This document shows, piece by piece, positions 2,358 through 31,392 of a DNA stretch of 33,034 nucleotides. The stretch's first letter is position 1. Each line of letters starts with the position of its first letter. A program made the position numbers and the translations under genes. The notes under the pieces were generated by a model, which worked only from the letters and a program-made list of their open reading frames with translations, searched no databases and had not been told where the DNA came from. This DNA is from an uncultured Pirellulaceae bacterium (GTDB lineage Bacteria > Planctomycetota > Planctomycetia > Pirellulales > Pirellulaceae), in contig CALDHM010000069.1 of assembly GCA_937941455.1 (NCBI GenBank), positions 1-33,034 of the forward strand. Reading direction: 5' to 3'.

Positions 2358-3872
2358 CTAATAGCGAGCGGCACTCGTGGCACGTTTCAGTTCATCCCGC
2401 ATCAACTGGCGATCGGCCTGCAATCCCGTGAACAATTCAAACTGCTGCGCCGCTTGCCGCACGAACATATCGACACCGGTTTTCGTTCGACAACCGGCCC
2501 GCCGAGCGTACTTAATCAGCAGCGTTTGTTCCGGATTGTAAATCGTATCGAATACGGCGACCCGCGAATCCAACCAACTTTCGTCGAAGGGCGACTCGTC
2601 CATATCGGGATACATTCCCACCGGGGTGCAATTGACCAGCAGATTGAAATCGTGATTCTGCCGCGCGACCCAATCGATCGCTTTGCATTTGATTTCGGCC
2701 GCCAGTGCTTCAGCCTTGGTATATTCCCGAGTCGTCACGGTCACTTTGGCCCCACGTTGCAACAAGCCGATCGCAATGGTGCGCGCTATCCCCCCTGCCC
2801 CGAGAATCAAGACCGATTTGTCGGAAAAGGCCGATGGGGAGCGCCAGTCGACCTCGTACAGTTCCCCGATGACGCTCAAGGCCGCCTCGATATCGGTGTT
2901 GTAGCCGAATCCGTTTTCGCCGCGGAAGATCGCCGTGTTCACCGAGCGGAGGCTGGCCGAAATATCATCGAGCACGTTCAAGCATTTCAAGATCTTCTCC
3001 TTGTGGGGCATCGTGACGCTCAGGCCCCGAATCCCCAACTCCGGACAATGGCGAATGAACTCCGACAGATGCTCCGCCGGAACGCGGAAGGGCAAGTAAG
3101 TCATATCCAAATTGTATTTTCGCAGCATCGCATTATGGACGCGCGGACTATAGCTATGCGCGACGGGGTCAGCAATGACCCCGAGCACAGCCGTATCGCG
3201 ATTGATCCCATCGTAGTTGTATTCATCGCGCAGAACCGTGTAGCTGATTTGCCCGGGAGCGACTTGGCGATCGTCTTGAAAGGAAGCGTAAGTCCACGGT
3301 GCGCCGAATTTGCCGCAGAGTACTCGCGACATCAAGCCCATCTCTCCCATGCAGAAGGCAACCGTCGGGATTGTGGCATCGCGCACCAGTCGCAATACGC
3401 GCAAATTATCCATCGGGTTGTTGGCCAAGGTCGCTATCTTCACCACATCCGCATTGAGGGTGGCCAGTCGCCTGTGAATCTTTTCCAGATCTTTGGGAGT
3501 CTCTTGGAAATTGTGGTAGCTGATGATCCGCTTGGTCGACCCGTAGCGGGGAATCTTGCTCGCGATGTCTTCTTCTAAATCAACGTATTCCGCCCCGTTG
3601 GCAATCGCCGTCCGCAGCAGCACCAGTCGATCTTCTTCGCTACGCATCCACCGCCCCCCCTCCTCGGGGCGACGGCAAGTGACAATGATCGCGGCCTTGC
3701 GATTCGCGAACAGACGAGTCATGTCTACGGGACGCCGGATGTAGTCGAGCCGCAACTCCACTAACTGAATACCTTGCTCCACAAGGTAGTCGTACTCCGC
3801 AAGCATCATTCGGTGCCGTCCACGTCCTATGCTGACACATATCATGGGAGTGTGTTGATTAAGATAAGCCAA
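2358..3872 (-). CDS. aroDE: Bifunctional 3-dehydroquinate dehydratase / shikimate dehydrogenase
   Basis: A fusion of about 504 residues that would turn 3-dehydroquinate into shikimate in two steps. Residues 10-225 are a type I dehydroquinase: VELRLD, ISYHNFQETP with the general base His120, VKIATLANNP with the Schiff-base lysine at about 145, and a conserved Gln near 208. From about residue 228 a shikimate dehydrogenase follows: VIADPVAHSYSPRVHN, SVTMPHKEK with the catalytic lysine at 291, the GYNTD motif with Asp327, the Rossmann loop LILGAGGIA near 355-363, and a C-terminal VDMFVRQAAQQFELFTG. The same domain order is known in plants and chlamydiae. The start used is TTG 3872, with AAGGGA upstream. 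ATG at 3845 (MICVSIGR) is a real alternative that would keep the whole domain. Confidence 0.93.
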   Translation of the reverse strand: MAYLNQHTPMICVSIGRGRHRMMLAEYDYLVEQGIQLVELRLDYIRRPVDMTRLFANRKAAIIVTCRRPEEGGRWMRSEEDRLVLLRTAIANGAEYVDLEEDIASKIPRYGSTKRIISYHNFQETPKDLEKIHRRLATLNADVVKIATLANNPMDNLRVLRLVRDATIPTVAFCMGEMGLMSRVLCGKFGAPWTYASFQDDRQVAPGQISYTVLRDEYNYDGINRDTAVLGVIADPVAHSYSPRVHNAMLRKYNLDMTYLPFRVPAEHLSEFIRHCPELGIRGLSVTMPHKEKILKCLNVLDDISASLRSVNTAIFRGENGFGYNTDIEAALSVIGELYEVDWRSPSAFSDKSVLILGAGGIARTIAIGLLQRGAKVTVTTREYTKAEALAAEIKCKAIDWVARQNHDFNLLVNCTPVGMYPDMDESPFDESWLDSRVAVFDTIYNPEQTLLIKYARRAGCRTKTGVDMFVRQAAQQFELFTGLQADRQLMRDELKRATSAARY

Positions 3873-4156: not shown

Positions 4157-4888
4157 TCAACCAGCCGCCCCAAGCAAACGACTCAAGGTGTCACAAACCA
4201 GTTTAACCATTCGCTTGAATTCAGGATTCGACGCCTGCATATGCCGTTGATTGATTTCCAACTCGATACCCAAATAGTCCATCGCTGGAAACTGTTTTCT
4301 CAAATAAGTCGTGAAACCATCGGCAATACCCAAGTACGGATAATTCCGCCGTACGCGCCAGCCGTAGGGGTTTTGCTTCAATTCGGCAGACCAACTTTCG
4401 CAAAATCGTTTCTCCAGCTTGCGCCGTGGATCATACAGCAATCCTATATCGGCATTTCGAATCTCCTCGCCGAGTTGCGGCGTAAACGAATGCAAGGACA
4501 GATGCAGCACCGGCCGTCGCACTGCGATCAACCGCCGAATCTCCTCCTCGACTCGATTTCGATGATTGAGATAGTAAGTCTCGATCAAGTGCTGCTTTTC
4601 TGATTCGCTCAAGTTTCGAGAAAATTCCGAGAAAAGTCGCGGGTGCCAGAGCGACCGATTCACCTCGATCAACAACCGAGAGATCGAGGTTTGAAACAGC
4701 GGCGCCCGAAAACGGCATTTCAGAGCCTTCCCTAACGCGGCTGTCCCCGGATCCCAACCACGATGCGACTCCAGCACATCCTGATGGCCGCGAAACAAAC
4801 GCCGATACGCGGCTGGTACCTCGTGCGTCGCATGTTCGCATGACAAAACTAATGACGCCGAAATAATTTTTTCAATGGTCGATCGCAT
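4157..4888 (-). CDS. N-formylglutamate amidohydrolase family hydrolase
   Basis: A cytosolic hydrolase of about 243 residues of the family that includes HutG, which removes the formyl group of N-formylglutamate. Family motifs read in order: SCEHA (16-20), SHRGWDPGT (41-49), ISRLLIEVNRS (69-79), HLSLHSFTP (about 128-136), GLLYDPRR and NYPYLGIADGFTTYLR. The ATG at 4888 is the only sensible start. No histidine-degradation genes are in view. The gene instead follows a C39-like peptidase, an ATP-grasp ligase and a GCS2-type ligase, so it may hydrolyse an amide in that pathway, such as trimming or recycling a glutamyl product, rather than act in histidine catabolism. The family call is firm; the substrate is inferred from context. 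The gene is separated from the GCS2-type gene by 202 bp holding a repeat element. Confidence 0.85.
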   Translation of the reverse strand: MRSTIEKIISASLVLSCEHATHEVPAAYRRLFRGHQDVLESHRGWDPGTAALGKALKCRFRAPLFQTSISRLLIEVNRSLWHPRLFSEFSRNLSESEKQHLIETYYLNHRNRVEEEIRRLIAVRRPVLHLSLHSFTPQLGEEIRNADIGLLYDPRRKLEKRFCESWSAELKQNPYGWRVRRNYPYLGIADGFTTYLRKQFPAMDYLGIELEINQRHMQASNPEFKRMVKLVCDTLSRLLGAAG

Positions 4889-4965
4889 TCGACTACCGGC
4901 GAAGACTCAAGGGGGAAGTTGACAAGCAACCAAGATGATCGGCTCCCAAGGTGTATCGCATCATC

Positions 4966-5067
4966 AGGCTTTGTGCTAAAACCCCGTCAGCCGCGGGGGG
5001 CTCGCCCGTGTTTCTCGCGAGAACCGGACGCTCACGCGTTCCGGCGAATGGTTTTGGGACAAAGCCT
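4966..5067. repeat. Inverted-repeat element, copy 1 (about 102 bp)
   Basis: Bounded by near-perfect inverted ends: AGGCTTTGTGCTAAAACC at 4966-4983 and GGTTTTGGGACAAAGCCT at 5050-5067. Its reverse complement aligns with 22664-22764 along almost the whole length, including a shared AGCGTCCGGTT core. Inside are two smaller stem-loops, one of them CCGGA-n-TCCGG. It has no coding capacity. Size and structure suggest a MITE or REP-like element. I see no obvious target-site duplication. It lies in the gap between the GCS2-type ligase and the amidohydrolase-family gene. Confidence 0.8.
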
Positions 5068-5090
5068 AATATCTCAATCAACGCGCGAAG

Positions 5091-6320
5091 TTACGAGAGC
5101 ATCTGATTCATTTTCAGGCATTCGCAGAGCTCTCGATACACGTCAGGTACCGAACGAGCACCGTGGTCGTGTTTTGCAAGAATCCGGCGGGAGAGCGGGC
5201 CACGATCGAGAATCACATCCCAGGCCGCCTCGGTCTCAGGCGTCAAAGCCTTCGGCCCCAACTCCTGATGCACCATATTCCGCCAACTCTGCCAAACCTC
5301 GCGCAACGTTGCACCGCGTCGAACCCCATATAGATCGGCTAGTTCAGGAGATGAAACAACCGCCTCATCGGCCTTGACGATGGCCTCGACCAGCAAATCC
5401 GCCAGCGGCGTGACTCCGACCCTTTGCTGCCGGTGGTAGCTCGCAAGTCTCTCCGACGTCCAGAGCTTTAAAACCGCCCCGATCATCTCGCAGATGGCCA
5501 CATCGGCAACCACACATTCCTGAACGTCGAGGACGCGAATCTCGATAGCTCCGCGATCGAAGCGAGCGATCGCTCCGCGCGAGTTCAAAAAAGGCTGTTG
5601 CAAGATACCTTCCGGGTCATGCGGCGCGATATCGGCGTACAGTCGCTCAAAAATCTCGCGATGGTAATCGGCTTCCGTAAAGATCGCCTCGGGGACCACA
5701 CGCCCGGTCAGGGACGGGACACGCCGCGAGTTGTGGCGGTAGACCTCCATGCGATAATCAAGCGATTCTTGCCGTCGCCCGTCGGCAAACGGCGAACTGG
5801 CCGCGATTGCCGGCAACAGTGGCAACACCAAGCGAATGGCGGCATGCAAACGGCCGAACTCTTCATCGGATGCAAACGGCAGATTGAGGTGCGCACTTTG
5901 CAGATTCGCCCAACCATGACCGCGGCAATCGAAAATGCGATTGTAGGCTTCATACACGGGATTGTATTCATGCGGCCAGAGCTGGAGTTCCCGGAGCGGA
6001 TCCATCCAGGGGTGCATGGCGGTCGGCATCAACCGTGCTCCGAATCCCGCGGCGATTTCATTGATGGTCTGCACGTTCGCTTGAAATTGTTCGGCCAATC
6101 CGTGCCACGACGTTGCTGGACCATTGGTTTTGATCTCGATCACATGCAGAGCCAATTCGTTCGACCACGCAATCGGTCCGTTTTCGAAGTCGGATACGAT
6201 CGCCCCGGCGGCGCGCTCCAAAATTTTGTCGGCGATCGGCCTGACATCGAGCGTGGTCGTATCGACCAGCATGTATTCGAGTTCGACACCGTATCCTTGG
6301 AATAACCCCAAGCGTTCCAT
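5091..6320 (-). CDS. GCS2-type carboxylate-amine ligase (glutamate-cysteine ligase family 2-like)
   Basis: An ATP-dependent carboxylate-amine ligase of about 409 residues with the glutamine-synthetase-like fold of the GCS2 family (EgtA, YbdK and plant-type GSH1 relatives). It shows the N-terminal metal and ATP strand GYGVELEYMLVD (9-20), EIKTNGP at about 62, the QSAHLNLPF strand near 141-149, SSPFADGR near 175-182 and a late RGAIEIRVLDVQEC. Family members join the gamma-carboxyl of glutamate to an amine, but the substrates here cannot be read from sequence. Its start lies 14 bp after the ATP-grasp ligase stop, so the two are co-transcribed and probably act in one pathway. Beginning directly at the catalytic strand is unusual compared with the longer lead of YbdK. 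The ATG at 6320 has an AAGGGA tract upstream. Confidence 0.87.
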   Translation of the reverse strand: MERLGLFQGYGVELEYMLVDTTTLDVRPIADKILERAAGAIVSDFENGPIAWSNELALHVIEIKTNGPATSWHGLAEQFQANVQTINEIAAGFGARLMPTAMHPWMDPLRELQLWPHEYNPVYEAYNRIFDCRGHGWANLQSAHLNLPFASDEEFGRLHAAIRLVLPLLPAIAASSPFADGRRQESLDYRMEVYRHNSRRVPSLTGRVVPEAIFTEADYHREIFERLYADIAPHDPEGILQQPFLNSRGAIARFDRGAIEIRVLDVQECVVADVAICEMIGAVLKLWTSERLASYHRQQRVGVTPLADLLVEAIVKADEAVVSSPELADLYGVRRGATLREVWQSWRNMVHQELGPKALTPETEAAWDVILDRGPLSRRILAKHDHGARSVPDVYRELCECLKMNQMLS

Positions 6321-6334
6321 CCCATGCGTCCCTT

Positions 6335-7804
6335 CTAGAAAAATCGCGACTTCCGCTGTTCGATGCGACGCAGGAAGGTCCCCATGATGCGGAGATAGAG
6401 TTCATCCTTTAGCACTTGATCCTCGACCCCCGCGTCAATATTTGGATTGTCGTTGACCTCGATCACGTAAAATTTGCCATCGGATTCCTTGATATCGACA
6501 CCATATAAACCATCGCCGATCAAGTTCGCCGCCTTGACCGCCATTTTGACGGCTTTAGGCGGAGCCCAATCGATCGGCATCGTCTCGAAGCGGCCGTAGC
6601 GATCGTCCCCTTTGTCCCCATGGTTGATGATTTGCCAGTGCCCCCGAGCCATGAAGTATTTGCAAGCGTAGATCGGTTGCTGATCGAGAACGCCGATTCG
6701 CCAATCAAACGTCGTCGGCAGGAATTCCTGAGCGATGACCAGGTCGGAATCTTCCAGAAATGTCTCGATTTTCGCATCGAGTTCGGCTTGATCGTTCGCC
6801 TTCACAACCCCCTGCGAGAATGCGCTATCGGGTTTTTTAAGAACTACTGGAAACCCCAACAACTCCCCGATCTGGGCTACATTCCGCTCGTGAGCCACCA
6901 GTGTACGAGGGATGGGAATTTTATGCCGCGTCAGCAACTCGGCTAAATAAACCTTGTTCGTGCAACGCAAGATCGACTGGGGATCGTCGATGACCACCAA
7001 CCCCTCCCCTTGGGCCTTGCGCGAGAAACGATAGGTGTAGTTCGTGAGGCAAGTCGTATCCCGGATGAACAAGGCATCAAACTCAGCAATCCGCCCGTAA
7101 TCGTCCTTGGTGATCAACTCGGCCGACATATTCAGCGATTCCGCCGCGCGGATAAACTTTTTGATCGCTTTTTCATTCGATGGCGGGTGGGTATCGTCGG
7201 GTCGAACCAGAATGGCAAGGTCAAACCGCGGCCCATTTTTCTTGGTCCGAGTCGAACGACGACCCGCAAAATGTTCTTTTGCGGCCTGAATTACAAACGG
7301 CCAATGGGTGGGTGGGACTTCGTTGCCAGCGATCGAATCGATTTTTCGCAAATGCCAACGGCCTTGAGTGCTCCGCGTAAACTCGGCACGCAGCATGGGG
7401 CTAGGAAACTGGTTGAACAGGCTCAGGGCCAGTTTGTGGTAACGCATCGCGAGGTTTTGGCCGAAGTAGATGCTCAACTCGAATTGATTCGATTTAACCG
7501 ACGCCAAACTCTTTTGAATCAAATCGTCGATTTCGTCGGAGACCATCCGAACGACCGCTTGAGTTTTGAAGTCGCGTACTGTCGCCACGTTGGGGATGGG
7601 TTTGTGCCCGCGGGCCTCGGCCAACAACGACACGTAATAGCCTTCGCTCTGATAGCGATAGGATCGGCACAGGTTGAACACTTTGACACCCCGGCGTTCC
7701 GAAAACGCGGCGTCGGTCAAATACACCATGGCATCGACGACTTCCGCTCCGGATATCTCTGCGGGCCAGTCGTCCGGGTTATCCGTAACGATCAAGACTG
7801 ACAT
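6335..7804 (-). CDS. RimK-like ATP-grasp ligase with an N-terminal RLAN-type domain
   Basis: A protein of about 489 residues. Residues 1 to about 150 match what I recall of the RLAN region, an alpha/beta domain found before RimK-type ATP-grasp modules. Residues 200-480 are the ATP-grasp ligase: FPVVLKKPDSAFSQG with the ATP lysine near 323-324 and a glycine loop, VIAQEFLPTTFDWRIG (356-371) and YGVDIKESDGKFYVIEVNDN with metal ligands Asp437, Glu449 and Asn451. RimK-type enzymes activate a carboxylate as acyl phosphate and form a peptide or isopeptide bond, often with glutamate. The ATG at 7804 lies inside the upstream peptidase gene (13-bp overlap), and the GCS2-type gene starts 14 bp downstream, so coupling is tight. 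The ligase call is firm; the N-terminal domain assignment and substrate are less certain. Confidence 0.88.
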   Translation of the reverse strand: MSVLIVTDNPDDWPAEISGAEVVDAMVYLTDAAFSERRGVKVFNLCRSYRYQSEGYYVSLLAEARGHKPIPNVATVRDFKTQAVVRMVSDEIDDLIQKSLASVKSNQFELSIYFGQNLAMRYHKLALSLFNQFPSPMLRAEFTRSTQGRWHLRKIDSIAGNEVPPTHWPFVIQAAKEHFAGRRSTRTKKNGPRFDLAILVRPDDTHPPSNEKAIKKFIRAAESLNMSAELITKDDYGRIAEFDALFIRDTTCLTNYTYRFSRKAQGEGLVVIDDPQSILRCTNKVYLAELLTRHKIPIPRTLVAHERNVAQIGELLGFPVVLKKPDSAFSQGVVKANDQAELDAKIETFLEDSDLVIAQEFLPTTFDWRIGVLDQQPIYACKYFMARGHWQIINHGDKGDDRYGRFETMPIDWAPPKAVKMAVKAANLIGDGLYGVDIKESDGKFYVIEVNDNPNIDAGVEDQVLKDELYLRIMGTFLRRIEQRKSRFF

Positions 7805-8571
7805 AGGGGCAAGTGACTCGGTTGCACAATCATCAAGTTCGCATCATAGGTCAAGACGCCTAGCAATATCGCGCAAATCAGGCGATCAAAATTGACTTCG
7901 TAGTAATGGTCCCTGGCAAACGGATTGGGAATGTAAGGATCAGCCACGCGCGCCCGTTTTGTGCGGCGGTCCTCTCCGCAAATCACGACAAAGTGCCCGG
8001 TAGGGGTGCCCCGAATGTCGTCGGGCCGCATGTCGCGCTGCCGTTCGCGGGGTGCTTGGTAAAGGTAAGTTGCACTGAGCCCTGTCAGGATCGGAATTTG
8101 CCTTTCCAAATAATAGCGTATCAACGGTTTATTCAAATCGTGCATGCAAATTTCCCCGCCGGCACGAATGAATGCCAAATACGCATCCATGGCCAAACTC
8201 AGCTTGACTCCGATTTTGATTTCGCGCTGTTGCTCGAGTTTCTCCACCAGGTCCACGACCGGGACCCGATCTTGAGGCAGGTAAATCGGATCACTGGCGC
8301 GGGAGTCAACGGCCTGACGGAAGTCGAACCAGGAAGGATCGAAAATTCTGAGATTGTACGTGTAGATTTTTACGCGGTAGCCACGCTTTAGAGCTTGACG
8401 ACCCAACAAAACTGCCAGCGTACCACCATCATCCAAGTGCGGCGTTTCTTCAATCACGTCCGTCAGGGGCCGATCGTCCCCAAAAAAATGGTAGACCGCA
8501 TGCAGACAGGTCGGCCCACAGGTTAACTCGTTCGGTTGCGGTAAAATTTTGAATTCGCTTAATGCTTTCAT
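7792..8571 (-). CDS. C39-like cysteine peptidase family protein
   Basis: A protein of about 259 residues with a papain-like catalytic set as in C39-like peptidases: oxyanion Gln12 and Cys18 in PQPNELTCGPTCLHAVY, His193 in GTPTGHFVVICGED and Asp211 in VADPY. The middle (120-170) includes a GGEICMHDL segment and resembles no domain I recognise. There is no ABC transporter and no signal peptide, so it is not a bacteriocin-export C39 protein; it would act in the cytosol as a peptidase, amidase or transpeptidase. It is the first gene of the ligase cluster and overlaps the ATP-grasp gene by 13 bp. The ATG at 8571 starts just before the conserved core but lacks a clear ribosome binding site. In-frame starts at 8610 (ATG) and 8640 (TTG) are possible. 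Confidence 0.82.
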   Translation of the reverse strand: MKALSEFKILPQPNELTCGPTCLHAVYHFFGDDRPLTDVIEETPHLDDGGTLAVLLGRQALKRGYRVKIYTYNLRIFDPSWFDFRQAVDSRASDPIYLPQDRVPVVDLVEKLEQQREIKIGVKLSLAMDAYLAFIRAGGEICMHDLNKPLIRYYLERQIPILTGLSATYLYQAPRERQRDMRPDDIRGTPTGHFVVICGEDRRTKRARVADPYIPNPFARDHYYEVNFDRLICAILLGVLTYDANLMIVQPSHLPLCQS

Positions 8572-8649
8572 CCCTGGAACGATCGAGGTGCAGTAGCTCC
8601 TGCCGACCATGGGCTCATCGCCCAAACCGTTCGGCGCCAAACCGAAATT

Positions 8650-13189: not shown

Positions 13190-16100
13190 TTACTCTGATT
13201 CTTCCGTGCGGAGTACGCCGCCGTCCAAACGGTCGATCAATTCCTTGAACTCGGCCCAACGTCCGGTAACCAGCAGCGCTGCTTGTTCTGGCCAAGTCCC
13301 TGGATCGTGGACGCTGAACGCCGGACCAGCTTCATCTAAAATGGCTCGCAAGGTCCCCGTGTCAGTGGTGGCAAGGTCTGTCCACGAAACGATCCCCTTG
13401 GCTCGCATGATTTCGGCGATCTTGGGACCGATCCCTTCGACGATGGTCAAATCATCCAGCTTAACCGGCCGCCCGATAATCGCGGAGGCTACCTGCAGGT
13501 CGAGACGTGGTTCCTCGTGGCGAGCGGTCGCGGTTTCGACGACGCGCGACGTCTGGCTGCTGCCGCCATCGCTGGCCGCCCGAGAATCAAAGTTGGCCGC
13601 TCCGCTCAGGCGGTCGGCATGGGCTTGCTCGGCTGCCGTGCGGGATTCTAACAACGGGAAACTAGCCTCGAGCGACTGCGTCGGTGCCGCAGCGATCTCA
13701 CGCATCGCCTCGAGGTTGTATTGAACCTCGGCATCCTGGAAGGTTCGGAAGCCAGTTCCGGCTGGAATCAGGTGGCCTAGAATGACGTTTTCCTTCAACC
13801 CAACCAAATGGTCGACCTTGCCGGCCAATGCGGCCTCGGTGAGCACCTTGGTGGTTTCCTGGAAGCTCGCCGCCGAAATGAAGCTGGAGCTTTGCACCGC
13901 GGCCTTGGTGATGCCCAACAGCTGAGCCTTGCTGGTGGCCGGCTTGGGCTTGGTTCCCTTGGCCGGTTTTCCACCTTCGTTCTCGATGCGAGTATTTTCT
14001 TCCTCGACGTAGTCGCGGCGAACAACCTGGCCCTTCTTGAAGCTGCTGTCACCCGGATCGGTGATCTTCAAACATTTTTCAAGGTCTTGATTGATTCTCC
14101 TCAGGTCGAAGCGGTCGAGCACCATGCCGGGAAGCAGATTCGTATCCCCCGCCGATTCGACTTTCACCTTCCGCAGCATCCGCGCGATGATGACCTCGAT
14201 GTGTTTGTCATTGATCTCCACGCGCTGGCTGCGATAGACGCTCTGGATTTCGTGGAGCAAGTATTGTTGCACGGCTTCCTCGCCCGACACTTCCAAAATG
14301 TCATGTGGGACCAACGGGCCCTCGACCAATTGAGCACCAGCCTTGACGACATCGCCGGTATGTACGCGGAAGCGTTTTCCGGGGGGCACCAGATGCTCTT
14401 TCTCGATGCCCGCCTCTTCATTGCGAACAATGATGGTCCGCTTGTTTCGCTTTTTCTCGTTGAGGATGTACACCACACCGTCGATTTCGGACAAAACGGC
14501 CGGATCTTTGGGCTTGCGGGCCTCGAAGATTTCGGTGACGCGGGGCAAGCCCCCCGTAATGTCGGTGACCCCCGAAGCCTCTCGCGGCGTTTCGGCAATC
14601 GTCGAGCCTGCGGAAATCATTTGTCCCTCCGCCACCAAAATGTGGGCACGCTCGGGGAGGTAGTAGACGTCCAGCGTCTTGCCATCCTTGTCTTCGATCA
14701 CGATATTCGGATGCAAATCGCTGCGCGAATCCATGATCATACGGCGGATCGTACCGCTGGCGTCCCGTTCCTCCTTCATCGTCTCCCCTTCGACGATGTC
14801 TTCGTAACGGACGCGTCCCGTGACCTCGCACAAGATGGGAATCGCGTGCGGGTTCCACTGGCACAGCATCGTGTTCGGCTCGACGACCTGATCGTCGCGC
14901 ACATTCAAAATAGCCCCAGCGGGAACCTTGTGGTTTTCCAATTCGCGGCCACGCTGGTCGAGGATCGTGATCTCGCCGTTGCGGTTGAGGACGACCGTAT
15001 TCCCCTTGTCGTTGGTCACGTAATTGACCCGCGTCAGGCGAACGATCCCCCCTTTCTTCGAACGTTTTTCACTTTCTTCAGCCGTCGTACCGGCGACACC
15101 GCCGAAGTGGAACGTACGCATCGTGAGCTGTGTGCCCGGCTCGCCGATACTTTGTGCGGCGATGATCCCGACCGCCATTCCTTCTTCCACCAAATCGCCC
15201 GTCGACATATCCATGCCGTAGCAAAGTTGGCAGACCCCCAGAGTTGCCTCGCAGGTCAACGGGCTGCGAACTTGAATTTTTTCCAAGCCCATCTCTTCGA
15301 TCTTGCGAGCGATCTCCAACGTGATCAGCTCGTTCTCACGAACGATCACTTCGTCCGTGATCGGATTGACGATGTTTTGGCGAGACACGCGCCCTTTGAT
15401 GGCCGTGGCTAGACGGACCTCGACCGTTTCACCGCGATAGATGACCCCTTTGGTGATGTAGCGGGTCGTACCGCAATCGTGGCAGGTGATCACGACGTTT
15501 TGAGCTACGTCGGCCAATTTGCGGGTCAGGTAGCCCGAGTCCGCAGTTTTTAACGCCGTATCCGCCAAACCCTTGCGGGCACCGTGCGTCGAACTGAAAT
15601 ATTCGAGAACGGTCAGACCTTCGCGGAAGTTCGCCTTGATCGGCGCCTCGATGATTTCCCCTGTCGGTTTGGCCATCAAACCCCGCATCCCGGCCAACTG
15701 GCGAATCTGTTCGACGCCACCGCGAGCACCGGAGTGGGCCATCAGGAAGACCGGGTTGACATAGCCCGTGCCGCCACGGTCGTCGTGCTCCATCGCTTGC
15801 ATCATGTTCTTGGTGATCTGCTCGCGGGCATGTGTCCAGATTTCCAAGACCTTGTTGTACCGCTCCTGGTCGGTAATGACCCCGCGTTCGTAATTGCGAC
15901 GATACTTGAGCACTTCCTTGTCGGCATCCGCGACGATCTTTTCCTTGGAGTCGGGGGTCACCAAGTCGTCGGTCGCGAACGACAATCCGCTGCGGAAGCT
16001 TTCGCGGAATCCCAACTGGTTCATATCGTCGAGCAGTTTGATCGTGGCCCGGCGCCCAGAGATCTGGTAGCAATCGGAAATAACCGTCGAAAGGTCACCC

Positions 16101-17914
16101 GAGCGTAGCGGATAGTTGTAGAAATCCATGCCCGACGGCAAGATGGAGTTGAACAGAATCCGGCCGTAGCTGGTGGTGATGATTTTGGCAGGCACACGCT
16201 CTTCGTCGTTGCGACGCTCGTAACGCCCCCCCTCCAGGCGAACCTGGATTTTGGCGTGCAGCGTGATGACGCCTTGGGAGTAGGCCAGTTCCGCCTCGGC
16301 GAAGGATGCGAAGCACATCCCCTCCCCTTTTTGCCCCGGCAACATCAATGAGATGTAATAGCAGCCCATCACCGTGTCCTGCGATGGACTCATGATCGGT
16401 TTGCCGTTGGACGGGGCGAAGATATTGTTGGTCGACATCATCAGCGTGTGGGCCTCCACCTGCGCCTCGATCGAGAGTGGCAAGTGAACCGCCATCTGGT
16501 CGCCGTCGAAGTCCGCATTGAAACCACGGCAAACCAGCGGATGCAAATGGATCGCGTTCCCTTCAACCAGAACCGGCTCGAACGCCTGAATTCCCATGCG
16601 GTGCAACGTGGGAGCACGGTTCAGCAGAACAGGATGGTTTTGAATGACTTGCTCGAGAATATCCCAGACTTCCTCGTCCTTGCGCTCGAGCATTTTCTTG
16701 GCGCTCTTGATTGTATCGGCGTGGCCCAATTCCTTGAGCTTGCGAATGATGAAGGGCTGGTACAGTTCGAGCGCGATTTTCTTCGGCAGGCCGCATTGAT
16801 GCAGTTTCAAACGCGGGCCCACGACGATCACACTCCGCGCCGAATAATCGACCCGTTTGCCTAGCAAGTTCTCGCGGAAGCGGCCTTGTTTCCCCTTGAT
16901 CATGTCGGTCAAGGATTTGAGGGGGCGATTGCTGCTTCCCAACACCGGCCGTTTGCAGCGATTGTTGTCGAACAGAGCATCGACCGATTGTTGGAGCATC
17001 CGCTTTTCGTTGCGAATGATAACCTCCGGCGCATTGAGATCGACGAGTTTGCGCAAACGGTTGTTTCGGTTGATGATCCGGCGGTATAAATCGTTCAAGT
17101 CGCTCGTGGCGAAGTTCCCCGATTCCAGCAGCACCAGCGGCCGCAGATCGGGAGGAATGACTGGAATCACATCCAGCACCATCCACTCGGGTTTATTCTC
17201 GCTGTCGCGAATCGCCTCGACGATTTTCAAGCGATTGGTCAGGTCTTTCTTCTTTTGTTTCGAATTGGTCGTGGCCAATTCGGTCCTCAACTCGCCGCTG
17301 AGCTTGACCAGGTCGAGGCTGGCGAGCAGATCGCGAATCGCTTCGGCTCCCATACCGGCCTTGAAGCGGTTGTCGCCGAAATGAGCCTTGGCTGCGCGGT
17401 ACTCATCCTCAGTCAACAACTCTTGTTTGACGATTTTTTTGTCGGTGCCGGGGATCTTTTCCCCTTCGATGTCCCCGGCGTCAGTAATGACGTAGTCCTG
17501 AAAGTAGATGATTTTCTCCAGGCTGGTTGTTTTCATATCCAGCAGGTTACCCAAGCGACTGGGCATCGCCTTGAAAAACCAGATATGGACGACCGGTGCC
17601 GCCAATTCGATATGGCCCATCCGTTTGCGTCGCACGCGCGAGTGAGTCACCTTCACACCGCAGCGGTCGCAGATCATCCCCTTGTATTTCATGCCGCGGT
17701 ATTTGCCGCAGGCACATTCCCAGTCCTTTTCGGGACCGAAGATCCGTTCGCAGAACAGGCCGTCTTTCTCGGGTCGGTAGGTCCGATAGTTGATGGTCTC
17801 GGGCTTCTTGACCTCGCCCATTGACCAACTGCGGATGTCCTGTGGTCGTGCCAGGCTGATCTTTACCGCCGCGTAGTCATTAATACGATCATAAGAGGTG
17901 TCAGCAATCGCCAT
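13190..17914 (-). CDS. rpoC: RNA polymerase beta prime subunit with C-terminal helix-hairpin-helix extension
   Basis: Catalytic large subunit of RNA polymerase, about 1574 residues. The N-terminal zinc site has Cys67, Cys69, Cys82 and Cys85, the catalytic loop [12 protein letters not shown] lies at 466-477, and a second zinc site uses CHDCG and [11 protein letters not shown]. The normal bacterial end, [15 protein letters not shown], falls near residue 1394. A further 180 residues follow: a low-complexity linker and, from about 1485, a helix-hairpin-helix region with [17 protein letters not shown] and [10 protein letters not shown]. The ATG at 17914 has AAGGAG nine bases upstream, whereas the in-frame ATG at 17920 would sit on top of it. 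It follows rpoB by 73 bp and is co-transcribed with it. Confidence 0.97.
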
Positions 17915-17987
17915 GTGCACCATCTCCTTCGAAAAACAAACCAACTAACCCAAACCGTTACGCGCCGCAGTTCCGCTTCCTTGCGAT

Positions 17988-28903: not shown

Positions 28904-30595
28904 TCAGTTCTCTTGCTCGTCAACCCACTCAGGCAATTCGATGTTTTCCTCGCGAGCTGCCGCCCGCAATTTACCCAACGCTCGCGCTTCAATTTGCCGT
29001 ACGCGTTCCTTGGTGACGCCCATTTCTTCGCCGACCTCTTTCAATGTCAGCGGCTCGTGAGAGTGATCCAGGCCAAAGCGGCGGCTGATGATTTGTTGCT
29101 CGCGGCTATCCAACCGCTGCATGATGCGGCTGATTTGCTGCTCACGGAGTTGCTGCTCGGCCTCTTGGGTCAGGTGGTCAGGTCGCTCGTCAGCACGTGA
29201 CAGGAACACCTCCTCGCTGGTCGGCCGAAACCGATCGCGCTGGCGGAACTCGTCGGGAATCGTCCGCGCAAAGTTCTTCATGATGGCCCAGCTGGCATAG
29301 GTGCTGAATTTGGTCCCGCGCGTGTAGTCGAATTTTTCTACCGCCTTGATCAGCGACATATTCCCATCGCTCACCAATTGGAAGAAGTCGTCACTGGAAT
29401 TAACGTGCCTTTTGGCAATGGAAACGACGAGCCGCAAGTTCGCCTGAACAATGCGATTCTTGACCTTAATCGCCTCCTGATACAGCCGATCGACCTCATC
29501 CATATCCGAGGTCCGCGCGTTGGCGGGATCGATTTGCTCCCGACGCTTGAAGGCCAGAAACTTCAGATAGTTGTACTTGCGGAACAAGTATTGTTCTTGC
29601 TCGCGAGTCAACAACGGAACCTCGTACAGACTCGCCAAATACCGCGGTAAGCCTTGTGGCGGCCGCGTCTTGCGAACCAAGCCATCGCCAGCGGGCAGTT
29701 CTCCTTCCAATATCTTTTTCGCGGCGTTCTTGCGATGGAATTCCGGGCTGTCCATGTAATCGAGCGGCAATTCGAGAATCGCCTTCGCCCGCATTTCATT
29801 GACAACACGGTAGATCGTATTTCGCGTGCGGCAGTAGCGATTGGCTATCACCTCGGCCGATCGGCCCTGACGAAACTCCTCGTAAATTCGCTCCTTGATC
29901 TCCAGATTCAGCGGGCCGGCCTGATCCGGGAAAATCGCCATCTCGGGATACTTCTCGTCGAATTGCTTGATCGTATAGCGGACGGTCTCAACGCTCCGCG
30001 ACATGTGCTTGGCAATGCGGCGGGCTACCTCTGCTGGGCAACCACCGGCGTTCGCCAACCGGCGAGCGCGGTCGATAATCTCTTCTTTATCTTCTGGGGT
30101 CAACTGGCTGAAGCGCTCGCCACGCTTGATTTTTTCTTGATGTTCCCTCACGAACGTATTGACACTGCTGTGCAGAAAGCCGACTCGCTTCCGCCCCCCC
30201 TCGAAGACAAAGCGTCGACTTACCAGACCTTGCTGTCGCCACCTCGAAATGGTCTTGATCGAAACATTGAACCGCTTGCTCAAATCTTCCACGGTGTGCA
30301 CCGGTTGCCCGACCATCTCCACGCTCAAATTCGCAGAGTCCGTCAGGTCTTCGATCAATTGATGCAGATCTTGAATCAACTCCTCACCACGAATCTGCAC
30401 GATCGGCGAATTCTCCGGGCGATAACCCGTGACCCGATAGCAGACGAATTCGAAGTTATACGTCTTCGCTTCGTCGATCTCCCGCACCAAGCGTTCCGCT
30501 CGGTCAGCCTGCTCGATCCGCTTTTCGCGCGGAGCGAACCGAACTTGTTGATCTCGCAATTCTCGAATTAAATCACAATGATAACGACGATGCAT
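28904..30595 (-). CDS. Sigma-70 family RNA polymerase sigma factor with HTH-rich N-terminus
   Basis: A sigma factor of about 563 residues that directs RNA polymerase to promoters. Region 1.2-like residues lie at 318-350. Region 2 is at 380-450, with NLRLVVSIAKRH and SDGNMSLIKAVEKFDYTRG then KFSTYASWAIMKNFAR. Region 4 is at 485-547, with LKEVGEEMGVTKERVRQIEA. No clear region 3 separates them. Residues 1-315 are unusual: a MerR/excisionase-like HTH at 100-140 (TVEDLSKRFNVSIKTISRWR), a second likely HTH at 167-212 and a third at 230-272 (SAEVIANRYCRTRNTIYRVV). The ATG at 30595 has GAGG seven bases upstream. It may be the housekeeping sigma of this lineage or an extra one. It ends at a strong terminator. 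Confidence 0.92.
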   Translation of the reverse strand: MHRRYHCDLIRELRDQQVRFAPREKRIEQADRAERLVREIDEAKTYNFEFVCYRVTGYRPENSPIVQIRGEELIQDLHQLIEDLTDSANLSVEMVGQPVHTVEDLSKRFNVSIKTISRWRQQGLVSRRFVFEGGRKRVGFLHSSVNTFVREHQEKIKRGERFSQLTPEDKEEIIDRARRLANAGGCPAEVARRIAKHMSRSVETVRYTIKQFDEKYPEMAIFPDQAGPLNLEIKERIYEEFRQGRSAEVIANRYCRTRNTIYRVVNEMRAKAILELPLDYMDSPEFHRKNAAKKILEGELPAGDGLVRKTRPPQGLPRYLASLYEVPLLTREQEQYLFRKYNYLKFLAFKRREQIDPANARTSDMDEVDRLYQEAIKVKNRIVQANLRLVVSIAKRHVNSSDDFFQLVSDGNMSLIKAVEKFDYTRGTKFSTYASWAIMKNFARTIPDEFRQRDRFRPTSEEVFLSRADERPDHLTQEAEQQLREQQISRIMQRLDSREQQIISRRFGLDHSHEPLTLKEVGEEMGVTKERVRQIEARALGKLRAAAREENIELPEWVDEQEN

Positions 30596-31392
30596 TACCG
30601 GGCCTCGATTCGTTTTCAGCTGTTCCGCTACATCCACTGGCAGTCAGCAAAAAACAACTCTGATGGGGTCGGACATCCCTTTCCAACTCTACTCTATTCC
30701 AACTCTCCTGCTTGCTCTTCCCAAGCTCGGCCGACAATGATTTTACGGATTCAGCCGCCACGATGTTCAACCTGAACCGATCAGCTCAAGCGATTCCCAT
30801 TCTCAACGGTACCGCTGGCGCGAAATCGCATTCCACACGCCGTAGGATCGGCAGTCCCGCTCGAGCGAGACCTTGGTGGCTAACAGTTTCGTTTGCTTAA
30901 CTCCGTACCCTGTCTGGCTTGACTAAGTTTGATGACGCGGGTCAGCTCTGAAAGTTCGAACGTTTTTGCAAACTGACGCCGTGACACCGCATACCCCGCC
31001 TCTGAATTAGTCTGCAAACGTTGCGCCAAGTTCACGTTTTTTGCCGTTTTTAGCGAAAAAACTGGTATTTTCCGTTACAACTAGGCCGCTGGCCTCCGCT
31101 GCCGCCTGGGTATTTCGGATCAGACTGAGACAAGTTGCATCAATTTGAAACAATCGAAATTCCGATAAATCCGGTAGCCATATGCCGTAAATCTGATTCC
31201 AAACACGAAAAACCGCATCAAGAAGCCAAAGCGAAAACTAAGCCAAGCTGCCCACACCAGTCGAAAACCGAGGCATTAGCAAGGGGAAGATTGGTGTAGG
31301 GGCTCGATGAATCCCCTTAATTCATCCGCATGGCCACGTCACTCGCGACCGCTTTTGCGCGCTCCATGACCTCGACTCTGATAGGCTCGAAA
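30596..31392. other. Divergent intergenic region, no gene seen
   Basis: About 800 bp between the sigma gene and the plus-strand secreted protein. Only short frames without conserved features are found. An imperfect stem, GTTTTTTGC with GCGAAAAAAC, lies near 31035-31062, and the region 30950-31080 has several T runs and short repeats. The promoters of both flanking genes must lie here, but I cannot place them with confidence. A small RNA is possible. Confidence 0.4.

Follow-up and report, generated by a model that had tools for sequence, protein, structure and literature searches.

A 33,034-nucleotide stretch of DNA from an uncultured Pirellulaceae bacterium (Planctomycetota; CALDHM010000069.1, hereafter the window) carries a cluster of four genes, which code for a C39-like protein (C39), an ATP-grasp ligase with an RLAN domain (RLAN), a ligase of the GCS2 family (GCS2) and a protein of the N-formylglutamate amidohydrolase family (FGase) (Table 1). 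These four genes form a true functional module, and the cluster is a variant of a kind of RLAN neighbourhood that had been predicted before, with GCS2 replacing the GNAT acetyltransferase. Tentatively, we favour a self-contained and widely spread four-gene pathway that would make and turn over a short, capped cytoplasmic peptide. The joint ligase-peptidase pathway proposed in the initial annotation of the window gains strong support from adjacency of the genes in several phyla, from a co-occurrence that goes beyond adjacency and from fusions of RLAN with GCS2, and the accompanying hint at a thiol product is not supported.

Table 1. Position and main characteristics of the four cluster genes in the window
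Gene product	Position	Strand	Characteristics
C39-like (papain-fold) cysteine peptidase or transpeptidase, stand-alone	7792-8571	minus	259 aa; Q12-C18-H193-D211
RLAN-ATP-grasp amide ligase	6335-7804	minus	489 aa; RLAN ~28-172, ATP-grasp ~194-482
GCS2-family carboxylate-amine ligase	5091-6320	minus	409 aa; divergent from YbdK-type/glutamate-cysteine ligase models
N-formylglutamate amidohydrolase-family (FGase) protein	4157-4888	minus	243 aa

The gene order of the cluster is conserved across phyla. An RLAN search of named genomes yielded 113 confirmed matches, the best 80 of which were taken as loci (L numbers; G numbers denote genomes), and 22 of these 80 (L021-L041 and L089, with identical proteins in L030 and L089) are of the GCS2 type seen in the window. 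Judging by the record titles, they belong to Planctomycetota, Opitutaceae and Akkermansiaceae (Verrucomicrobiota), Fibrobacter (Fibrobacterota), Marivirga and other Bacteroidota, Melioribacteraceae, Nannocystaceae and Paraliomyxa (Myxococcota), Gemmatimonadota and Omnitrophota. In 19 of the 22 loci, the gene immediately upstream of RLAN is C39. GCS2 is likewise present in 19, directly downstream of RLAN in 18 of them and about 3 kb off on the opposite strand in L041; it is missing from L025, L031 and L032, in which the contig stops just past RLAN. FGase was found inside the locus in 10 of the 22. In the window, C39 shares 13 bp with RLAN, RLAN and GCS2 are 14 bp apart and a gap of 202 bp separates GCS2 from FGase. 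With start codons picked by script, the gap between C39 and RLAN is at most 30 bp, overlaps included, in 17/19 of the 22 loci and in 10/14 loci of relatives, and that between RLAN and GCS2 is at most 60 bp in 16/18 and 7/11, respectively. The genes flanking the cluster vary between genomes, and in the set formed by the window and the 22 GCS2-type loci every family other than the four is limited to three loci at most. The initial annotation had given the coordinates, overlap and 14-bp gap correctly at all positions checked; it had also named a lack of co-conservation in relatives as grounds for rejecting its interpretation, and the genes turned out to be co-conserved.

Co-occurrence was assessed in a set of 60 relatives, the genome of the window included. 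RLAN and FGase were each found in 15 of these, C39 in 16 and GCS2 in 17, always inside the same 17 genomes, and the other 43 contain none of the four genes at the thresholds used. Each of the 15 genomes with RLAN also carries C39 and GCS2, and 15 of the 17 genomes with GCS2 have FGase. GCS2 occurs without RLAN in two genomes of the same genus, G003 and G004, both of them fragmented assemblies with FGase next to GCS2, and G004 has a fragment of C39 as well. In a sample of 149 genomes of the phylum (RLAN threshold E <= 1e-30), RLAN was present in 37, GCS2 in 28 and both in 27, with G063 as the one GCS2 genome lacking RLAN; FGase was matched in 27 genomes, namely 22 with a score of at least 180 bits, all with GCS2, and five at 74-117 bits, all without it. 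Fisher p values for RLAN and GCS2 were 2.6e-12 (60 relatives) and 2.5e-20 (149 genomes), which overstate independence due to shared ancestry and are only indicative; those for GCS2 and FGase in the phylum sample, equally uncorrected for kinship, were 3.3e-21 for strong FGase matches and 2.1e-16 with the weak ones included. The association of the cluster genes is far beyond chance. Since FGase is located apart from the other cluster genes in four genomes (G007, G022, G036, G044) and G050 has GCS2 and FGase on one contig and C39 and RLAN on another, this co-occurrence is more than adjacency.

A further link between the two ligases is provided by gene fusion. RLAN and GCS2 share one open frame in L127 (988 aa) and L128 (974 aa), from genomes of different families; Pfam detects both domains in each fusion, in the order RLAN then GCS2. 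C39 precedes both fusions and FGase follows the one in L128. A fusion of C39 with RLAN, hinted at by long open frames, was rejected, both profiles never being found in one frame.

The remaining 58 of the 80 loci, mostly from Gammaproteobacteria, are not matched by the C39, GCS2 and FGase profiles of the window. In 57 of them a GNAT acetyltransferase is located within 1.8 kb of RLAN, the exception (L093) being at a contig end, and 33 GNAT-type loci have a DUF3335-like peptidase domain in the frame of the GNAT itself. The RLAN proteins of the named GNAT-type loci are about 40-46% identical to that of the window. Among these records, L047 is titled as a Klebsiella pneumoniae metagenome-assembled genome (MAG) and has the RLAN gene order of the gammaproteobacterial MAGs L046 and L051, which makes its species label doubtful. 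Ten genomes of the phylum sample have an RLAN match and no GCS2, the match spanning only the last 280-370 model positions in five of the ten; nine were fetched (G172 was left out), and GNAT is adjacent or fused to the ligase in eight of these and G170 has neither. Single GNAT-RLAN proteins are encoded by G184 (654 aa) and G185 (652 aa). Conversely, the GNAT and DUF3335 queries gave no match in the 22 GCS2-type loci or in 14 loci from relatives, and GCS2 and this GNAT were found together in no locus tested. In a quick maximum-likelihood tree built from 62 RLAN sequences, the switch between the GCS2 and GNAT labels occurs three times, or twice when the short ATP-grasp relatives are excluded. GCS2 and GNAT thus occupy one slot beside RLAN, that of 'something that acylates an amine', and because both enzymes acylate an amine, this slot is the strongest clue to the chemistry of the system. 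Four planctomycete loci (L135, L136, L137, L140) carry ATP-grasp relatives of about 300-400 aa with the RLAN domain absent or split off and with GNAT adjacent; these pairs of a short ATP-grasp protein and GNAT are possibly a minimal version of the system.

All four family assignments of the initial annotation are borne out, each protein scoring over its Pfam cut-off, and none of the four reaches an NCBIfam cut-off, C39 and FGase being without any such model at E <= 0.001. C39 matches Peptidase_C39_2 (PF13529) with 28.8 bits against a cut-off of 24. Its start was taken at the ATG at 8571, near which the C39 proteins of relatives begin in the alignment, the longest open frame opening with a TTG at 8640. 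The initial annotation had described Gln12, Cys18, His193 and Asp211 as intact, and these residues are indeed present and conserved among relatives: the 33 aligned rows (31 distinct) all share Q12, C18 and H193, and at position 211 there is D in 31 of them and E in the other two. The AlphaFold2 (AF2) model of C39 (pLDDT 82.8, 19 sequences) was matched in structure comparison (VIA) to the C39 domain of PCAT1 (Z 17.6, 2.1 Å, 136 aligned residues), to a pseudomurein endoisopeptidase (Z 17.1, 2.2 Å, 149 aligned) and to the glutathione-acylated primitive phytochelatin synthase Alr0975 (Z 16.5, 2.5 Å, 161 aligned). The Pfam match, the catalytic residues with the oxyanion Gln and the best fold match together place the protein in the peptidase C39-like group of the papain clan. 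It is stand-alone, with no ABC transporter fused to it and no other Pfam domain, and does not classify as a leader peptidase of an export transporter. The phytochelatin synthase family (PF05023) is not matched, PF13529 being the only family reported at E <= 0.001; judged from the model, C39 resembles phytochelatin synthase in fold only, and this predicted fold favours neither a peptidase nor a transpeptidase.

The ligase encoded next belongs to the RLAN-ATP-grasp family, with matches to the RLAN domain (PF14401; 159.7 bits, cut-off 25, E 5.1e-47) and to the RimK domain (PF08443; 51.2 bits, cut-off 21, E 1.5e-13). In its structure model (pLDDT 86.3), the ATP-grasp part is closest to LysX (3vpd; Z 28.0, 2.2 Å, 265 aligned), followed by ArgX (Z 27.8), RimK (Z 27.0) and glutathione synthetase (Z 22.4), the VIA matches covering residues 191-486. 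The modelling suggested in the initial annotation predicts a papain fold for C39 and an ATP-grasp part nearest to LysX, ArgX and RimK for RLAN. GCS2 falls within its family (PF04107) with 99.7 bits against a cut-off of 21 (E 2.6e-28) and with its conserved residues: all fifteen residues checked are invariant in the 20 aligned rows (19 distinct), including E13, E15, E260 and R262, which we presume to have a metal or ATP role. Profile comparison finds it weakly similar to YbdK (1r8g, E 1.2e-4). The NCBIfam models listed for the two ligases comprise RimK, LysX, glutathione synthetase, glutamate-cysteine ligase and YbdK. RLAN scores under the cut-offs of rimK_fam (86.7 versus 143.4), LysX_arch (80.8 versus 275.6), MptN (66.3 versus 350) and PRK10446 (37.4 versus 331), and GCS2 reaches at best 56.8 versus 176.4 (TIGR02050), the other listed models scoring lower with higher cut-offs. 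The concern raised with the initial annotation, namely that the ligases might be standard glutathione or RimK enzymes, therefore does not appear to hold as far as profile scores can tell. FGase belongs to its family (PF05013) with 85.7 bits against a cut-off of 28.9, and its nearest solved relative is Atu2144 (2odf, E 2e-37). As judged from their sequences, the proteins have retained the residues that active enzymes should have.

In the pathway that we favour, GCS2 would use ATP to link an amine to the gamma-carboxyl group of glutamate or of a comparable acid, which would yield a gamma-glutamyl-X compound; in the sister systems, GNAT would set an equivalent cap, be it an acetyl or a different acyl group. 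RLAN, as a relative of LysX, ArgX and RimK, might then activate a free carboxylate and add a further amino acid. C39 could form an acyl-enzyme on Cys18 and subsequently cleave the peptide or transfer it to another amine in the manner of phytochelatin synthase, and the FGase-like enzyme would strip the terminal acyl-glutamate cap and in this way close a recycling loop. From the enzyme families, a product containing glutamate is plausible. A more specific proposal, which we consider possible but less likely than not, is that the product is an unrecognised short peptide shared widely among bacteria, gamma-glutamyl-capped in systems with GCS2 or N-acyl-capped in those with GNAT, with dedicated recycling, and that its cassette of three to four genes has been passed between phyla. 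The small-peptide reading is favoured since neither a target nor a precursor gene was observed to travel with the cassette.

A number of observations weigh against this reading. Leader peptidases and the endoisopeptidase equal or slightly beat phytochelatin synthase as structural matches of C39 (Z 17.6 and 17.1 versus 16.5), and no C39 was found in the GCS2-type loci L025, L037 and L040. FGase is absent from 2 of the 17 relatives with GCS2 (G037 and G054) and from 6 of the 28 GCS2 genomes of the phylum sample; because these do without it, FGase is not essential to the module. In G063 (L138), GCS2 adjoins FGase on a contig that extends several kb beyond the pair in both directions; neither RLAN nor C39 lies on that contig and the whole assembly gives no RLAN match, which points to a gap or to a reduced system. 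In three genomes the cluster occurs together with a strong match to glutathione synthetase (GshB). Finally, SET-domain genes are present at five GNAT-type loci, which fits a protein target better. They lie beside RLAN and GNAT in the proteobacterial records L086 (6345-7010), L088 (11932-12528) and L097 (11900-12532) and beside the GNAT-RLAN fusions, both of them, in the planctomycete genomes of L132 (4077-4652, minus strand) and L133 (5943-6563), and possibly tie the GNAT-type system to protein lysine methylation.

Such a protein target is at the centre of an alternative in which RLAN would attach amino acids to a carboxylate of a protein, in the way that RimK acts on S6, GCS2 or GNAT would modify an amine of that protein, SET would methylate it, and C39 and FGase would take the tag off again. 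The closeness of the ATP-grasp part to LysX, ArgX and RimK speaks for it, and the GCS2 fold is that of the Pup ligase PafA. The SET genes beside both fusions raise its probability slightly and lower that of a small peptide by as little; however, no SET match was obtained in the GCS2-type loci searched, and no target gene recurs there, as apparent from the lack of a fifth conserved family. We hold protein modification possible rather than probable. A glutathione-like thiol, for which GCS2 would make gamma-Glu-Cys, RLAN would add the third residue and C39 would polymerise the product as phytochelatin synthase does, draws on the folds shared with GshA and GshB, on the fusion of the two ligases in two genomes and on the similarity of the C39 model to glutathione-acylated Alr0975. 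The hint at a thiol in the initial annotation came from trxA just upstream of the cluster, and this neighbour is not conserved: no trxA adjoins the cluster in any of the 22 GCS2-type loci or of the 14 stretches from relatives, some of them cut by contig ends. Those 14 stretches contain no Trx match at all, and among the 22 loci such matches are limited to L038 and L039, where they lie about 3.6 and 4.9 kb away from C39. Matches of at least 166 bits to PF02955, the glutathione synthetase domain, show no pattern either, being found in 3 of the 17 genomes with GCS2 and in 3 of the 43 others, a count from which G031 (an intermediate 105.5 bits, no GCS2) was left out; the idea of the cluster as a replacement for glutathione was rejected on this basis. 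Together with the GNAT variants, which have no GCS2 beside RLAN, this renders a thiol product improbable.

That C39 is the leader peptidase of a cluster for a ribosomal, graspetide-like peptide agrees with the leader-cleaving C39 domains that are the best matches of its model, and gaps of 94-192 bp in some relatives would be enough for a very short gene. The narrow spacing of C39, RLAN and GCS2 in most loci nevertheless leaves little room for a precursor, and the C39 of the window is not fused to a transporter. A 62-aa frame in the 202-bp gap of the window has no Pfam match (conserved small frames were not searched for systematically), and the corresponding gap in the close relative L021 is only 13 bp. 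This explanation is already weakened and very unlikely. Chance neighbours with separate housekeeping roles might be invoked, as FGase and C39-like proteins are common families, but co-occurrence, synteny in several phyla and gene fusions already contradict this, and we regard it as practically negligible.

Besides SET, a DUF2817 gene accompanies RLAN and GNAT in five loci (L043, L057, L059, L077, L134). DUF2817 is M14-like, and by eye the proteins show an H-x-x-E motif followed by a later H and E, resembling a zinc carboxypeptidase site. A relationship between FGase and DUF2817 was rejected, with a profile comparison probability of 0.2%; at most, the two may have a metallohydrolase role in common. 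Elsewhere in the window, a gene downstream of the cluster (2358-3872, minus strand) encodes a 504-aa fusion of a type I 3-dehydroquinase and a shikimate dehydrogenase; the gene after it was judged by eye to be shikimate kinase-like, and this three-gene order is kept in L021. RpoC (13190-17944, minus strand, 1584 aa) is extended at its C-terminus, and the extension contains a helix-hairpin-helix (HHH_5) match that stays below the cut-off (21.6 bits versus 27, residues 1497-1535), and a sigma-70 factor (28904-30637, minus strand, 577 aa) has a long N-terminal half and several weak helix-turn-helix matches.

RLAN neighbourhoods with GNAT-papain proteins are reportedly described in the Pfam entry of RLAN, in which GCS2 is mentioned, and Iyer et al. 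in 2009 (Mol Biosyst) reportedly predicted such neighbourhoods with GNAT-papain (DUF3335) proteins and also mentioned GCS2. RLAN-GNAT-DUF3335 systems share with the window the RLAN ligase family and a C39-like peptidase partner. The window, in which GCS2 and not GNAT follows RLAN, falls outside these systems and differs from them by a separate peptidase, the profile of which misses the DUF3335 domains, and by the addition of FGase. In one paper, which cites Iyer et al. 2009, DUF3335 is said to be frequently fused to GNAT (PMC10318531), and two others state that linked ligases frequently act one after another (PMC4431377) and describe RimK-RimB and the RloABC system, whose families differ from those of the window (PMC12239564). 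RLAN is not mentioned in the accessible parts of PMC12096838, PMC3765264 and PMC2922099, and no experimental study of, or function for, an RLAN protein was found in the open-licence literature, subscription papers being mostly outside the search. Our results tie RLAN to one of two partners, a gamma-glutamyl-type ligase or an acetyltransferase, and narrow its chemistry to acylating an amine and extending a carboxylate. They also define a minimal gene set that would make an orphan prediction testable and might bring to light a new peptide cofactor, an osmolyte or a protein tag in Planctomycetota as well as in other phyla.

Among characterised systems, the closest ATP-grasp structures to RLAN (Z 27-28) are those of RimK, which glutamylates S6, and of LysX and ArgX, which work with an amino-group carrier; the ligase of the window differs from these by its extra RLAN domain, its other partners and its scores under the listed RimK, LysX and MptN cut-offs. 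The NAGGN osmolyte system, consisting of a GNAT/ATP-grasp protein, an amidotransferase and an M42 peptidase, is like the window a small bacterial cassette combining amide ligation with a peptidase, although the enzyme families, as described, are different. Glutathione is made by GshA plus GshB or by the fused GshF, and phytochelatin synthase has a papain fold. By analogy, the window may follow a similar two-ligase logic, with a GCS-fold and an ATP-grasp ligase paired or fused and a papain-fold enzyme like phytochelatin synthase, whereas its ligases score under the listed glutamate-cysteine ligase and glutathione synthetase cut-offs and the order in the fusions is RLAN-GCS2. The animal N-acetylaspartylglutamate cycle comprises the GNAT NAT8L, a RimK-like ligase, aspartoacylase and a peptidase. 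Its logic of capping an amine, extending the product with a RimK-like ligase and hydrolysing it with a peptidase and a deacylase would be shared by the GNAT-type systems, the likeness being an analogy only; the peptidase here has a papain fold. If the capped-peptide reading is true, the cluster would constitute a bacterial parallel to both the glutathione/phytochelatin and the N-acetylaspartylglutamate systems.

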